NCBI RefSeq assembly: GCF_018968705.1 | Contig: NZ_CP076668.1 | Location: 5,033,001-5,097,000, forward strand | DNA from: Pseudomonas lijiangensis | Lineage (GTDB): Bacteria > Pseudomonadota > Gammaproteobacteria > Pseudomonadales > Pseudomonadaceae | Reading direction: 5' to 3' | DNA: 64,000 nucleotides | Shown: positions 55,885-60,261 of the stretch, piece after piece | Layout of the letters: each line of letters opens with the position of its first letter | How positions within the stretch are numbered: position 1 is the stretch's first letter | Made by a program: the position numbers and the translations under genes | The notes under the pieces: generated by a model | Database searches by the model: none | What the model was told of the DNA's origin: nothing | The model's input: the letters and a program-made list of their open reading frames with translations, nothing else

Positions 55885-56616
55885 ATGAATACATCCGGTG
55901 ATCGACTACGCATCCTCCTTCGGGAGTGCCATCTTTCTGCGACGGACTTTGCAGCCAACCGCAAAGTCACGCCCCAGCACGTGAACAACTGGTTCAAACG
56001 CGGCGTACCCATGGCGCGGCTGGAAGAAGTGGCTGAACTACTGACCGTCAACCCCCGCTGGCTGCGCACCGGCGAAGGACCCAAACACCCGACAGACTCC
56101 GCCAACGAGAACAATGGCGGCGACACCCCGATTACGCTCCACCAAGGCAGAAGCCTGCTGCGCGGCGATGTGGAAATCCAGATCTACAAGGAAATCGAAT
56201 CCACCAACAGCATTGGCAAGACCGTACTGGCCGAAGCGCCCGGCCAGAAAATACGTTTGCCCATGCACGTGCTGCAAACCATGAACATCGACCCCAAGAA
56301 CACCATGTGCGTCGCCATGATCGGCAACAGCATGGCCGACAAGATCCAGGACGGCTCACTGCTGGGCGTCAACCGTGACCTGACCCAGGTCATCGACGGC
56401 GAAATGTACGCCCTCGAACATGGCGGCATCCTGCGCGTCAGATACCTCTACCGCCTGCCCAACGGCGGCCTGCGCCTGCGCAGTCACAACAACAGCGAAT
56501 ACCCCGACGAACTCTTCAGCGCCGAAGAAATCGAGCGGGAAAACATCCGCATCCTGGGCTGGATATTCTGGTGGTCCACCCTCAACAGCCGCCGAAACGC
56601 CATGCTGCTGCGCTAA
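55885..56616 (+). CDS. XRE/S24-family repressor with altered catalytic dyad
   Basis: The 243-residue protein has an N-terminal helix-turn-helix (about 5-60; LSATDFAANRKVTPQHVNNWFKR) and a C-terminal peptidase_S24 domain like LexA and phage CI. The nucleophile is Ser149 in MIGNSMAD. The general-base position, 37 residues later as in LexA, is Arg186 (codon AGA at 56440) in place of lysine. No Ala-Gly or Cys-Gly cleavage site stands out in the linker. It may be an orphan repressor. No phage structural genes are near. Confidence 0.88.
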   Translation: MNTSGDRLRILLRECHLSATDFAANRKVTPQHVNNWFKRGVPMARLEEVAELLTVNPRWLRTGEGPKHPTDSANENNGGDTPITLHQGRSLLRGDVEIQIYKEIESTNSIGKTVLAEAPGQKIRLPMHVLQTMNIDPKNTMCVAMIGNSMADKIQDGSLLGVNRDLTQVIDGEMYALEHGGILRVRYLYRLPNGGLRLRSHNNSEYPDELFSAEEIERENIRILGWIFWWSTLNSRRNAMLLR

Positions 56617-56872: not shown

Positions 56873-57175
56873 TCAGTCAATCACTCCCATACGTCTGCGC
56901 CGCGCAACCAAAGCCCTCCGAAACGAAATCTCCGCATACTCCATGAACAACCGCGCCAAGTGATTCAGCGCTTCCTCTTCCCCTTCGCCACCCACGACAA
57001 AATCAAAACCCAGCGCACGCTTGTTCTGCTCAGGCAACTCGTCCCAACTGTTCATCAGGTAGGCGTACATGGCGCTGACGACTTGTTGCCTGGTCATAAC
57101 CTCCCGCGCCGAGAAGGTTGAGGATCTGAGTCTGCGAGGCTTGCGAGACAACAGTTGTGGTTTCTTGTTTTTCAT
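56873..57175 (-). CDS. Unrecognised protein, copy 1 of a duplicated gene
   Basis: I do not recognise this 100-residue protein. The N-terminus is very basic (KNKKPQLLSRKPRRLRSS). The core holds VVSAMYAYLMNSWDELPEQN and a helical, arginine-rich C-terminus (FRRALVARRRRMGV). The paralogue at 59747 is nearly identical over the last 80 residues. The start at 57175 has AGGGAG upstream; the frame is open to 57238. It is divergent from the XRE gene at 57299 across a 17-bp palindrome. Confidence 0.7.
   Translation of the reverse strand: MKNKKPQLLSRKPRRLRSSTFSAREVMTRQQVVSAMYAYLMNSWDELPEQNKRALGFDFVVGGEGEEEALNHLARLFMEYAEISFRRALVARRRRMGVID
56898..57090. repeat. Direct repeat, left copy (partner at 59786)
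   Basis: About 193 bp within the unknown gene recur with high identity at 59786-59978 in the same orientation. The two copies flank the XRE gene, the broken gene and hipAB. Confidence 0.8.
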
Positions 57176-57238
57176 ACTGACTCCCTTGCACTTGTGCGTG
57201 CACATCCCTGGAAGCAGAAGCTTAAACCAAAAACCCAT

Positions 57239-57255
57239 TTTGGGATAATCCCAAA
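57239..57255. promoter_or_regulatory. 17-bp palindromic operator between divergent genes
   Basis: TTTGGGATAATCCCAAA is a perfect palindrome around a central A. It lies 64 bp before one gene and 44 bp before the other, where a single XRE dimer could control both. The likely binder is the XRE protein encoded at 57299. Confidence 0.6.
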
Positions 57256-57298
57256 TCAGGTTTATTCAGGGTGTCGGACCATCAAACGGCACACCTAC

Positions 57299-57544
57299 GT
57301 GAAAACCATCCACAACACCCGCTACCAAGCATTGCTCCAGCTTTTGCTGGAGGCACGCGAAGCAGCCGGTCTGACTCAAAAAGAACTGGCAACCCGGCTC
57401 GGCCGCCCACAATCCTTCGTCTCGAAAACCGAGAATGCCGAGCGCAGGTTGGATGTGATTGAGTTTTTGGAGGTGTGCAAGGGGATTGGGGTGGATCCGT
57501 ATGGGGTGCTTCGGGGGGTGGAGGGTGCGACTACCTCGATTTGA
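57299..57544 (+). CDS. Small XRE-family DNA-binding protein
   Basis: The 81-residue protein is essentially one helix-turn-helix XRE domain: LLEAREAAGLTQKELATRLGRPQSFVSKTENAERR, followed by DVIEFLEVCKGIGVDPYGVL. The start is set at GTG 57299, since no ATG is available except far upstream at 57155, inside the divergent gene. It could repress itself and the divergent unknown gene. It might also be an antitoxin-like partner of that gene, but no evidence for toxicity is visible. Confidence 0.8.
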   Translation: MKTIHNTRYQALLQLLLEAREAAGLTQKELATRLGRPQSFVSKTENAERRLDVIEFLEVCKGIGVDPYGVLRGVEGATTSI

Positions 57545-57878: not shown

Positions 57879-58196
57879 TTAACGCCCCCCCACATACTGA
57901 CTCCGCTTCACCCTCACCGGACAAAGCTCAAGACCAAACGGCTTGAACACCGCATTCATCGACTTGATCGTCTGATTACCTTCTTCATGCTCAATATGCG
58001 CCAGGGTACGAATCGAGATTTTGCACATTTTGGCAAAGGTACGCTGATCCAGCCTGGCCACCATTGTTCGAAGCATCTCAACAGCCTTGCCCATCGATAT
58101 TTCACCATGACCCAGCATGTTCTCGATGGAGCGAATGAGCTCTTCCCTTGTCATTTTGCTGAAGTCCTGCCCACTCATGGCGGCATTTGAACTCAT
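57879..58196 (-). CDS. hipB: HipB-like XRE antitoxin
   Basis: The 105-residue protein has an N-terminal helical part (MTREELIRSIENMLGHGEISMG) and a helix-turn-helix (LDQRTFAKMCKISIRTLAHIEHEEG), with a C-terminal strand (LELCPVRVKR). It overlaps the upstream hipA gene by 4 bp, so it is translated after the kinase. It would bind HipA and the operators upstream of hipA. In the classical E. coli locus hipB precedes hipA; here the order is reversed. Confidence 0.82.
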   Translation of the reverse strand: MSSNAAMSGQDFSKMTREELIRSIENMLGHGEISMGKAVEMLRTMVARLDQRTFAKMCKISIRTLAHIEHEEGNQTIKSMNAVFKPFGLELCPVRVKRSQYVGGR

Positions 58197-59512
58197 AGAA
58201 CACCCCAGGCTTGCATTCGGTTTTTGAGGTTGGCCAGCGGGATGCTGGGGTGGTTCCAGATTAACTCCGGCAGATCTGGCTGAAGGATGTCAGGAAGTTG
58301 AAGGAACAGCTTGGCGTCCTCCATCAGGCGTTCATATAAGCGAGCGGGATGCACATAGGTTCCCAAGCTCATACAGGCGGCCTTCCAATCGATGTTATTG
58401 GCCAACTCAATCGGCTTAGGCCATCGTGTCGTTCTGATGATCCCTTCGCGATCTGCAGACATCGGAGCCAGGTCATAAATGGGGGCCAGTTTGAAGCGCC
58501 CCTTCTCACGGATGATTGACGTGTTCCGACCGTGATTGTCGGTGTTACCCAATACCTGGTTGAGCAAATCGCGGCGCAGATATTCAGAAATCAGTTCAGG
58601 GATCTCCTCTTTCTGGCCCGCGTATCTCCAGATGCTTACCAGCACATCGATGACCTGAAGATGACTCATTTGAACCCCAGGCTCTGAAATACCGGCCAAT
58701 GAGTAAATGGACTCCACCGCAAAACGTTTAACGCCTTCAGCTGATGTTTCACGATCAAACCGCTTCATCCAGAGACTTGGCTTGCGACCTTCATGAAGTG
58801 CCAGCCCATCCTGCGAAATCGTATTCAGCCCGAGCTGGTGAATCGCTTTGTAGTACAGGTACTCCGCGTGCAGGATGGCGACGTCTTCGTTTAGTGCCTG
58901 CCCCCTTGGAAACTTGATAAACCAGTGCTCAGCAGCCTCTGTATCTGGAAGCGATGCATCCGGGTAAAGAAGGCCCGTTTTGTCTTCCGTCATCAGAATC
59001 TTTGGTGCTGCACCACCTGCTCCACTGGCACCGCCAATGGCAGCTCCTTGATCGTATGCGTAGTCGATGAACTCAGTACTCAGAGCAATCACCTCATCAC
59101 GAGAAAATCCAAGGCGAGCTGACTGATCAATCAGGTCGGCAGACTCTTTGATTCGCATGTTGCCGATTGGCGCTGGCGTACAACGACGGAGCAGAAAGAG
59201 GTCAGTGGCCAGACCCTCAGGCTTTTCCCCGCCTATTCGCCGCATCAGAGAACTCTTTGCTGCACCCGCTGGCGAGATATCGTGAAGAAATGCTGGAGCG
59301 ATCTTGATTGTGTTGTCGTCAAAACCTACCGGGAAGTTGTAGCTGACCGCCGACTCATCCTGTGCCAGAACGTCGTTGATGTGGCGAATGATGTAATCAC
59401 GGTCGTAGGCATAAGAACACGGCCCAAGGAAACCTTCCGCAGGCTCTTGAAAGGTGAGATGAAAAGCATCACGCCACTGGCCTTCATCGTGGATCTGGAT
59501 TGTGAGCTGCAT
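58193..59512 (-). CDS. hipA: HipA-family serine/threonine kinase toxin
   Basis: The 439-residue protein has the HipA fold. HipA kinases phosphorylate aminoacyl-tRNA synthetases (GltX in E. coli) and can cause persistence. The Gly-rich loop is GGASGAGGAAPKILM, the catalytic loop is GNTDNHGRNTSI with the base aspartate, and the metal site is IYDLAPMSAD. The length is full. The RBS AGGTGG lies just before the ATG at 59512 and next to operator 1. It is first in the operon, with hipB overlapping its end. All kinase motifs look intact. The target is not predictable here. Confidence 0.88.
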   Translation of the reverse strand: MQLTIQIHDEGQWRDAFHLTFQEPAEGFLGPCSYAYDRDYIIRHINDVLAQDESAVSYNFPVGFDDNTIKIAPAFLHDISPAGAAKSSLMRRIGGEKPEGLATDLFLLRRCTPAPIGNMRIKESADLIDQSARLGFSRDEVIALSTEFIDYAYDQGAAIGGASGAGGAAPKILMTEDKTGLLYPDASLPDTEAAEHWFIKFPRGQALNEDVAILHAEYLYYKAIHQLGLNTISQDGLALHEGRKPSLWMKRFDRETSAEGVKRFAVESIYSLAGISEPGVQMSHLQVIDVLVSIWRYAGQKEEIPELISEYLRRDLLNQVLGNTDNHGRNTSIIREKGRFKLAPIYDLAPMSADREGIIRTTRWPKPIELANNIDWKAACMSLGTYVHPARLYERLMEDAKLFLQLPDILQPDLPELIWNHPSIPLANLKNRMQAWGVL

Positions 59513-59521
59513 AACGCCACC

Positions 59522-59535
59522 TGCAATATAGTGCA
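59522..59535. promoter_or_regulatory. hipAB operator 1 (TGCA-N6-TGCA)
   Basis: TGCAATATAGTGCA is centred at 59528.5, across the predicted transcription start and next to the hipA RBS. Confidence 0.72.
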
Positions 59536-59539
59536 GATA

Positions 59540-59568
59540 ATCATAGGGAAGAGGCCTAAAAAATGCAA
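59540..59568 (-). promoter_or_regulatory. Sigma-70 promoter of hipAB
   Basis: On the minus strand TTGCAT (59563-59568) and TATGAT (59540-59545) are separated by exactly 17 bp. The predicted start of transcription is near 59533, about 20 nt before the ATG. The -35 lies inside operator 2. Confidence 0.75.
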
Positions 59569-59577
59569 TTTATTGCA
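59564..59577. promoter_or_regulatory. hipAB operator 2 (TGCA-N6-TGCA)
   Basis: TGCAATTTATTGCA is centred at 59570.5, 42 bp from operator 1, and overlaps the -35 hexamer. Confidence 0.72.
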
Positions 59578-59605
59578 GAAAACCCACCCTCAAAGGCTGT
59601 ATAAG

Positions 59606-59619
59606 TGCACTATATTGCA
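59606..59619. promoter_or_regulatory. hipAB operator 3 (TGCA-N6-TGCA)
   Basis: TGCACTATATTGCA is centred at 59612.5, again 42 bp from operator 2, upstream of the promoter. It is the inverted version of operator 1 (TGCAATATAGTGCA). Confidence 0.72.
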
Positions 59620-59668
59620 GATTGCTCGATAACGATGCCCACAAGCCTGATCCAGATCTGAAGGACTT

Positions 59669-59691
59669 GTGGGAGGCAGCTTGCTGGCGAC
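59669..59691. repeat. Single REP arm, GTGGGAGGCAGCTTGC class
   Basis: One 23-bp arm identical to those at 53250 occurs without a partner, between hipA and copy 2 of the duplicated gene. Confidence 0.8.
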
Positions 59692-59746
59692 GACTGATGA
59701 AAAAACACCGCATATGTACTGGTCGGCCTTAACCACAAACCAGCTT

Positions 59747-60118
59747 TTATTTATCAACGGAAACCTTCTCAACCCCAAGCCTTCTACGCCGCGCAACCAA
59801 CGCCCGCCGAAACGAAATCTCCGCATATTCCATAAACAACCGCGCCATATGATTCAGTCCCTCTTCCTCCCTTTCACTGCCCACGACAAAATCAAAACCC
59901 AGCGCACGCTTGTTCTGGTCAGGCAGTTCTTCCCAACTGTTCATCAGGTAGGCGTACATGGCGCTGACGACTTTTTGCTTGCTCAGTGGTTCGTGTGACG
60001 GGCGAGGTGACCGGGCAAGCATGTGACGCCTTCGGAGAAGGCCACACTTCTTGCAGGTGGTTTGCGAGGATGAAAAGCGATGTTTCGGGTAGCGGACAGG
60101 TGAGTCTTTGATGTTCAT
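59747..60118 (-). CDS. Unrecognised protein, copy 2 of a duplicated gene
   Basis: This 123-residue protein is a paralogue of the one at 56873. The C-terminal 80 residues (SAMYAYLMNSWEELPDQN onwards, ending FRRALVARRRRLGV) are nearly the same. The N-terminus differs and contains CKKCGLLRR, a possible half zinc site absent in copy 1. The start at 60118 (MNIKDSPVRY) is tentative; the frame is open to 60238. It lies between hipA and the RTX gene. Confidence 0.65.
   Translation of the reverse strand: MNIKDSPVRYPKHRFSSSQTTCKKCGLLRRRHMLARSPRPSHEPLSKQKVVSAMYAYLMNSWEELPDQNKRALGFDFVVGSEREEEGLNHMARLFMEYAEISFRRALVARRRRLGVEKVSVDK
59786..59978. repeat. Direct repeat, right copy (partner at 56898)
   Basis: This is the second copy of the ~193-bp repeat, about 2.89 kb from the first and in the same orientation. 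Confidence 0.8.
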
Positions 60119-60229
60119 GAAAGGTTCCGGCCTTGATGAGTCGTACGAGATACCCATCATTTTTGGACGCAAACCTGTCAATGAACACACGCTATGGCGT
60201 GCGTTCAGCGATTTTCTCTTCGATTGGAT

Positions 60230-60261
60230 CAAAAGCAACCGCGCCCAAAGGCGCGGCTGCT
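60230..60261 (-). terminator. Rho-independent terminator of the RTX gene
   Basis: On the minus strand AGCAGCCGCGCC, TTT loop, then GGGCGCGGTTGCT is followed by TTTT. It lies 8 bp after the RTX stop codon. Confidence 0.88.

Follow-up and report, generated by a model that had tools for sequence, protein, structure and literature searches.

Probable operators at a conserved 41-42-bp spacing precede toxin-first hipAB operons in a gammaproteobacterial HipA clade

Introduction

In Escherichia coli, HipB binds its four operators cooperatively and bends the DNA by 70 degrees, and HipA has been reported as a co-repressor (PMC3920265). The HipBST system of Legionella pneumophila, as presented in PMC10653801, carries three evenly spaced operators (O1-O3) that are bound by HipB and conserved across species. 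For the toxin-first HipAB pair on GI21 of Shewanella putrefaciens CN-32, HipA is reported to be toxic and HipB to neutralize it, and promoter activity is reduced 2.1-fold by HipB and 2.9-fold by HipAB (PMC8978831). Toxin-first hipAB subclades and HipE, Hip kinases with HTH antitoxins, were named by phylogeny by Gerdes et al. 2021 (PMC8262856).

Here, we describe an operator array at a toxin-first hipAB locus in a 64,000-nt stretch of the Pseudomonas lijiangensis genome (NZ_CP076668.1, positions 5,033,001 to 5,097,000; hereafter the window, with coordinates counted from its first letter). Like E. coli K-12 hipBA, the locus has a linked HTH antitoxin and palindromic operators over the promoter (four there, three or four here); unlike it, the toxin gene comes first, whereas in E. 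coli the antitoxin gene leads, the spacing is an uneven 28/39/28 bp and the operator, TATCC-N8-GGATA, is unrelated. Three evenly spaced operators are shared with Legionella HipBST, which differs, according to its description, in being tripartite and antitoxin-first, with 18-nt sites and 53-bp gaps; the 42-bp center spacing in the window leaves 28 bp between 14-mers. Moreover, near-perfect conservation in 28 species is described for Legionella O1, with O2 and O3 more variable; in the clade described here the operator changes between lineages and the spacing stays. The CN-32 pair is similar in being toxin-first and autorepressed, with a HipA of 448 aa and an HTH antitoxin of 152 aa encoded downstream, but the main text of PMC8978831 describes no operator sites or palindromes. 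The reversed-order hipAB and HipE groups likewise combine a toxin-first Hip kinase with an HTH antitoxin; in PMC8262856 the word operator is used three times, for E. coli hipBA in the introduction and in a reference title.

A first-pass annotation of the window stated that no report of such an arrangement was known for a hipAB locus. This holds, within our search, for the 42-bp period, but hip operons preceded by several operators are known (E. coli, Legionella hipBST). In the open-licence literature, judged mostly by titles and the starts of abstracts, we found no report of a 41-42-bp period, of its persistence through operator change or of a lineage-specific hip operator spacing. As far as we searched, two elements are new, the four-turn period and the fact that it outlasts changes in operator sequence; the array is a variant of known hip autoregulation, not a new kind of system.

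Results

The hipAB locus and its operators

The features of the locus are as follows.

57879..58196, minus strand: hipB, XRE-type HTH antitoxin/repressor gene, 105 aa (profile match to E. coli HipB, probability 96)
58193..59512, minus strand: hipA, HipA-family kinase toxin gene, 439 aa, first in the operon (Pfam HipA_C, PF07804, 2.8e-29)
59522..59535, no strand: operator 1, the proximal site, TGCAATATAGTGCA; covers the predicted transcription start and touches the AGGTGG ribosome-binding site with its edge
59540..59545, minus strand: possible -10 hexamer TATGAT, 5/6 to consensus
59563..59568, minus strand: possible -35 hexamer TTGCAT, 3/6 to the consensus TTGACA; 5 of its 6 bases lie within operator 2
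59564..59577, no strand: operator 2, TGCAATTTATTGCA, overlapping the possible -35
59606..59619, no strand: operator 3 (distal), TGCACTATATTGCA, the reverse complement of operator 1

From their sequences and models, the two genes would form a toxin-first hip operon, with a HipA-family kinase gene adjoining an HTH antitoxin gene. The hipB start codon overlaps the hipA stop as ATGA, and most relatives in the core clade defined below also have an overlapping start. The HipA motifs GNTDNHGRN and YDLAPM align with E. coli HipA (catalytic D/N and YD), and D325, N330 and D347 are invariant across 13 aligned rows. The best 19 PDB matches of the HipA model (pLDDT 83.3) are HipA entries, with TM-scores by query of 0.58-0.66; they include entries titled 'MDT protein', which we take to be HipA. 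The protein is full-length in fold, with N- and C-terminal parts, unlike the split kinase hipS/hipT. HipB gave no Pfam match at E <= 0.001. Its model is helical (pLDDT 88.5), and solved HipB proteins head its Foldseek list, which is weak (best E 0.018, nothing at E <= 0.001); PDB 9u9g (HipB of P. fluorescens 2P24) has 23% identity in the Foldseek comparison and is absent among the best 60 of 97 profile matches.

The hipAB region is flanked by a direct repeat of 214 nt with copies 87% identical (56883-57096 and 59772-59985), each copy lying inside a small minus-strand ORF of similar sequence (56873-57238 and 59747-60238). This arrangement suggests a duplication or insertion. Two more repressor-like genes, for an HTH_3 protein and an S24-peptidase protein, are nearby (57155-57544 and 55885-56616, both on the plus strand). 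Phage records gave no HipA match at E <= 1e-10.

Upstream of hipA, exact matches place three TGCA-N6-TGCA sites with centers at 59528.5, 59570.5 and 59612.5 and both gaps exactly 42 bp, and site 3 is the exact reverse complement of site 1, all as the first-pass annotation had described. Neither half-site of the classical TATCC-N8-GGATA operator is present in 59500-59720. The bare motif is not rare: the 64-kb window holds 4 copies versus 2.73 expected, and 28/100 shuffles reach 4, so the sites might be a chance alignment of a common short motif. However, paired sites with a 42-bp offset are unique to the hipA promoter in the 5,870,232-bp genome (control pattern, 0), and their conservation over a whole clade (below) refutes a chance alignment, to which we assign a negligible probability. 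The fuller motif TGCANTWWANTGCA is confined to the three sites genome-wide (5.87 Mb; control, 0), and we rejected a wider regulon because the motif occurs at this promoter only.

We also used a motif-free search for the highest-scoring trio of palindromic 16-mers that resemble one another, letting each gap vary from 24 to 70 bp and counting as a match any locus with both gaps at 40-43 bp. The 200 nt upstream of hipA score 247.1, while 400 random 200-mers of the window have a mean of 168.0 (SD 7.1, maximum 214.9) and give both gaps at 40-43 bp in 3/400.

The promoter had been called near-ideal. Both hexamers of TTGCAT-N17-TATGAT and the 17-bp spacer are present on the minus strand, but the term is overstated for a -35 matching at only 3/6 positions, and because a consensus scan of 59400-59800 listed no promoter, we retain it only as possible. 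The placement proposed for the sites is consistent with this promoter: operator 2 spans 5/6 bases of the possible -35, and a start ~7 nt downstream of the -10 would land in operator 1. By eye, similar hexamers 17 bp apart occur in relatives L004, L034 and L035, with a -10 of TATGAT in L004 and L035 and TATCAT in L034. Among 47 representatives there is no conserved -10 at the promoter position of the window, and we therefore rejected the idea that this position is common to the whole family. The proximal operator slot in relatives is centered mostly -16 to -24 from the hipA start.

Operator spacing in Pseudomonas

A HipA search in 398 genomes of the genus gave a match at E <= 0.001 in 197, many of them partial or weak, and a search in named genome contigs gave 42 loci. 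From 74 loci we removed L001 and L002 (the same place as the window), 5 with duplicate upstream regions and 10 with another motif or none. The resulting set of 57 includes the window, as L003, and L067, although its hipA is interrupted.

The first-pass annotation had suggested looking for the same period upstream of other toxin-first hipAB loci. Using the motif-free search, we found both gaps at 40-43 bp in 57/57 Pseudomonas loci. The 156 gaps in these loci are 42 bp (91), 41 bp (61), 43 bp (3) and 40 bp (1), and their mean of 41.62 bp (SD 0.54) is near whole turns, in agreement with the proposal that the sites share one face of the helix. The array is also fuller than first noticed, with a four-site chain in 42/57 loci and a three-site chain in the other 15/57, including the window. 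A fifth match to the motif matrix, found in 3/57 loci, falls off the 41-42-bp row. This matrix was trained on the same loci and is circular for the motif, though not for the spacing; outside promoters it matches 4 times in 67431 coding positions.

Operators at matched slots in the 57 loci are 85% identical, while the 24-nt spacers, at 30%, are near random. That spacer length is kept while spacer sequence is not points to selection on distance. We explored the alternative that these are HipB operators whose effects simply add up, with no cooperative contact, and that the even spacing is a relic of a 42-bp tandem duplication. The sites within one locus are alike, and a duplication would yield even spacing at once. 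However, spacers share almost nothing between loci, and gaps of 40-43 bp are kept in L069, L070, L072 and L074, whose HipA proteins are only 32-38% identical to that of the window. Over such divergence neutral indels would have scattered the gaps, and we consider a relic quite unlikely. We conclude that the array at the hipA promoter is real, dedicated and strongly conserved, its sites being operators for which binding is predicted.

Spacing across the wider HipA clade

At E <= 1e-20, a HipA profile matched 5/369 genomes of the class and 16/398 of the phylum, with the genome of the window and two others in both sets. In total, both gaps are 40-43 bp in 85/91 loci assigned to one gammaproteobacterial HipA clade, here called the core clade: 74/76 for 57 Pseudomonas and 19 distant core loci, 5/6 core plasmid loci and 6/9 loci of one other genus. 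Among relatives outside the core clade the count is 0/15 (5 distant and 10 plasmid loci).

The core clade is one side of a well-supported branch in two trees. In the first tree it comprises 31 rows with support 100/100, namely 14 Pseudomonas loci and 17/19 distant core loci; L026 and L032 are counted as core without being in the tree. Together, the trees hold 14/57 Pseudomonas loci, 17/19 distant core loci, all 16 plasmid loci and 4/9 loci of the other genus, the rest being assigned by similarity.

Of the distant loci, 17/24 have both gaps at 40-43 bp, which is 17/19 for those counted as core and 0/5 for those outside it (L073, L078, L089, L090 and L091). Both core misses contain the 42/41 pair further down the ranking, L076 as the second and L084 as the 16th best of 2209 gap pairs. 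Outside the core, L073 gives 44/43, and by eye two sites lie 44 bp apart in L089 and 43 bp apart in L078; none of these was counted.

The plasmid loci were fetched after the claim had been formed. We picked 16 for genus spread among the matches listed (20 and 60, of 126 records), with P. aeruginosa and Burkholderia excluded, and used the protein-match start in place of the annotated start for L142 and L148. Gaps of 41-42 bp occur in 5/6 plasmid loci that the second tree places in the core (Pseudomonas, Rahnella, Ewingella, Marinobacter adhaerens and Acinetobacter towneri) and in 0/10 outside it. In L136, the sixth core plasmid locus, two sites lie 42 bp from each other. For the other genus, the six loci at 41/41 are near-copies of each other; L154 has two sites 41 bp apart, and L149 and L150 show nothing clear.

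The array is not equally distinct in every core member. Only two sites are clear in L136 and L154, and sites are weak in L084, L149 and L150. In L085 (z 0.1) and L135 (z 1.2) the spacing matches, but the scores do not stand out clearly from those of shuffles. These z-values rest on approximate dinucleotide shuffles, 15 for distant, 8 for classical and 6 for plasmid loci.

No array was found in L090-type relatives (L090, Comamonas, Polaromonas and two Acinetobacter plasmids) or in L091/L148. We therefore limit the claim to the core clade and reject a family-wide array. Alphaproteobacterial-type toxin-first relatives (L073, L089, L142, L145, L146 and L147) apparently have two operators 42-44 bp apart, of CCAT/ATGG type and read largely by eye, with perhaps three sites in L073.

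Within the core clade, the spacing persists where the operator differs (CTGCA, GGCA, GAGCA, GAGTAA, CGGTAG, GTCTA and others). The refuting outcome named at first pass, a lack of conservation in homologous loci, therefore did not occur: spacing is retained in most core-clade loci, although the motif changes in sequence within the clade. The best reading of these sequences is that the 41-42-bp spacing is a structural constant of the core-clade HipAB lineage, and that the operators themselves drift in sequence together with the recognition helix of HipB.

Antitoxin-first hipBA loci

For comparison, E. coli HipA has a match at E <= 1e-15 in 72/369 genomes. We fetched 30 classical loci and set aside L129 (partial) and L128 (without an upstream ORF). 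In the remaining 28 antitoxin-first loci, among which the hipB assignment of L127 is uncertain and L109 and L116 have a stop in hipA, the motif-free search gave both gaps at 26-29 bp in 20/28 (all 27 or 28) and at 40-43 bp in 0/28. As the same search returns 27-28 bp for classical loci and never 40-43 bp, it is not biased toward 42. Conversely, both gaps are 26-29 bp in 0/81 toxin-first loci versus 20/28 classical loci. L123 fits the 27-28-bp period with a score near shuffles (z 0.8), and L107, L118 and L120 give 26-28-bp chains once one doubled gap is filled. The operators of E. coli K-12 hipBA, which we measured at 28/39/28 bp, are unlike the even arrays of other classical loci. The antitoxin-first loci L100-L127, from varied gammaproteobacteria, thus also have evenly spaced operators (20/28, at 27-28 bp), and these vary in sequence. 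On this comparison, operator spacing seems to be a lineage character.

Operator sequence and the HipB recognition helix

We compared operators with helix 3 of the linked HipB in 32 rows, constraining gaps to 40-44 bp, so that this comparison is no evidence for spacing. All 24 rows with Arg at the fourth listed helix residue have C at half-site position 4 (24/24); 14 of these rows are Pseudomonas with the same motif. Lys or Gln at this residue goes with T in 6/8 rows; two rows have no clear call, and one of them, L087, runs counter to the pairing, with Lys in the helix but C in the left half-sites. The contrast is sharpest between SRRTLSDIE with GAGCA and SRKTLSDIE with GAGTA. Loci added later fit as well: L134 and L135 (SRKTL, GAGT) and the six 41/41 loci of the other genus (SRKTL, GAGTA). 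In L138 (SRRTL), C is present in one half of the half-sites and A in the other half.

In a partial Mantel test, helix 3 correlates with the operator given the rest of HipB (r = 0.30; 34/5000 permutations as high). The rest of HipB has a higher partial correlation of its own (0.55), which means that the pairing may partly reflect common descent. Operator variation thus follows, in part, that of the recognition helix encoded by the downstream hipB, as expected if HipB, the binder named at first pass, occupies the sites. Being linked, HipB-like in its HTH and changing in its helix along with the operator, HipB would be the natural candidate.

Because HipB binding is itself a prediction, we considered that the sites could be bound by another cellular regulator. 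We judge this very improbable: the genome offers no sign of a wider regulon for TGCANTWWANTGCA, the operator changes together with the helix of the linked hipB, and the array is also found on plasmids of other bacterial families.

A subgroup of loci (L072, L084, L085, L134, L135 and L149-L157) encodes a long HipB (~150-166 aa) with a C-terminal HTH and an extra N-terminal part, resembling the 152-aa HipB of S. putrefaciens CN-32. From its gene order, protein lengths (448/152 aa) and primer-encoded ends, CN-32 HipAB is probably of the same lineage as L084, L085 and L134; the CN-32 hipAB primers match none of the loci compared.

Discussion

We think it likely that the sites are HipB operators bound cooperatively by HipA-HipB complexes, which would repress the toxin-first operon. 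Each palindrome would take one HipB dimer carrying HipA. The four-turn spacing would align these complexes on one face of the DNA so that neighbors touch, probably through HipA, and this contact would make binding cooperative. We infer the contact from the fixed spacing. RNA polymerase would be excluded by operator 2 on the -35 and by operator 1 on the start and adjoining the ribosome-binding site, holding the toxin-first operon tightly off. The repression reported for CN-32 HipAB, a probable member of the family, is likewise stronger with HipAB than with HipB alone (PMC8978831).

A row of touching complexes is one geometry; in another, wrapping having also been suggested at first pass, the DNA would wrap or loop around a HipA-HipB core in a nucleosome-like manner. 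Same-face sites extending across ~100-140 bp are compatible with wrapping, as is the 70-degree bend that E. coli HipB introduces into its operator (PMC3920265), yet we consider wrapping unlikely. The argument from the helix face is also less strong than it seems: the classical spacing of 27-28 bp is not a whole number of turns, suggesting that contact geometry rather than the helix face may set the distance.

If neighboring complexes touch, a spacing that is kept while the sequence changes allows contact between DNA-bound proteins to be read from promoters, and the array offers a testable explanation for the tight repression of a toxin-first operon. Cooperativity through the toxin could be probed by spacer length alone. 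The natural operator/HTH pairs, with the suggested Arg/Lys to C/T correspondence, would be useful for studying XRE recognition.

Since classical hipBA has a different period, promoters may even reveal the geometry of the whole complex. We hypothesize, as a proposal about as likely to be right as wrong, that Hip complexes carry a built-in DNA ruler. Contacts between neighboring HipA-HipB complexes would set a lineage-specific spacing (27-28 bp in classical hipBA, 41-42 bp in the core toxin-first clade and perhaps 42-44 bp in the two-site alphaproteobacterial cousins), leaving the operator sequence free to drift with the HTH. The promoter would then serve as the template on which HipAB forms an ordered oligomer, with the double effect of silencing the operon and storing the kinase.

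In a number of Pseudomonas genomes hipA of this family is matched only in part, in some cases with stops, as if the hipAB module were frequently lost by decay. In L067, the operator row persists although hipA is interrupted.
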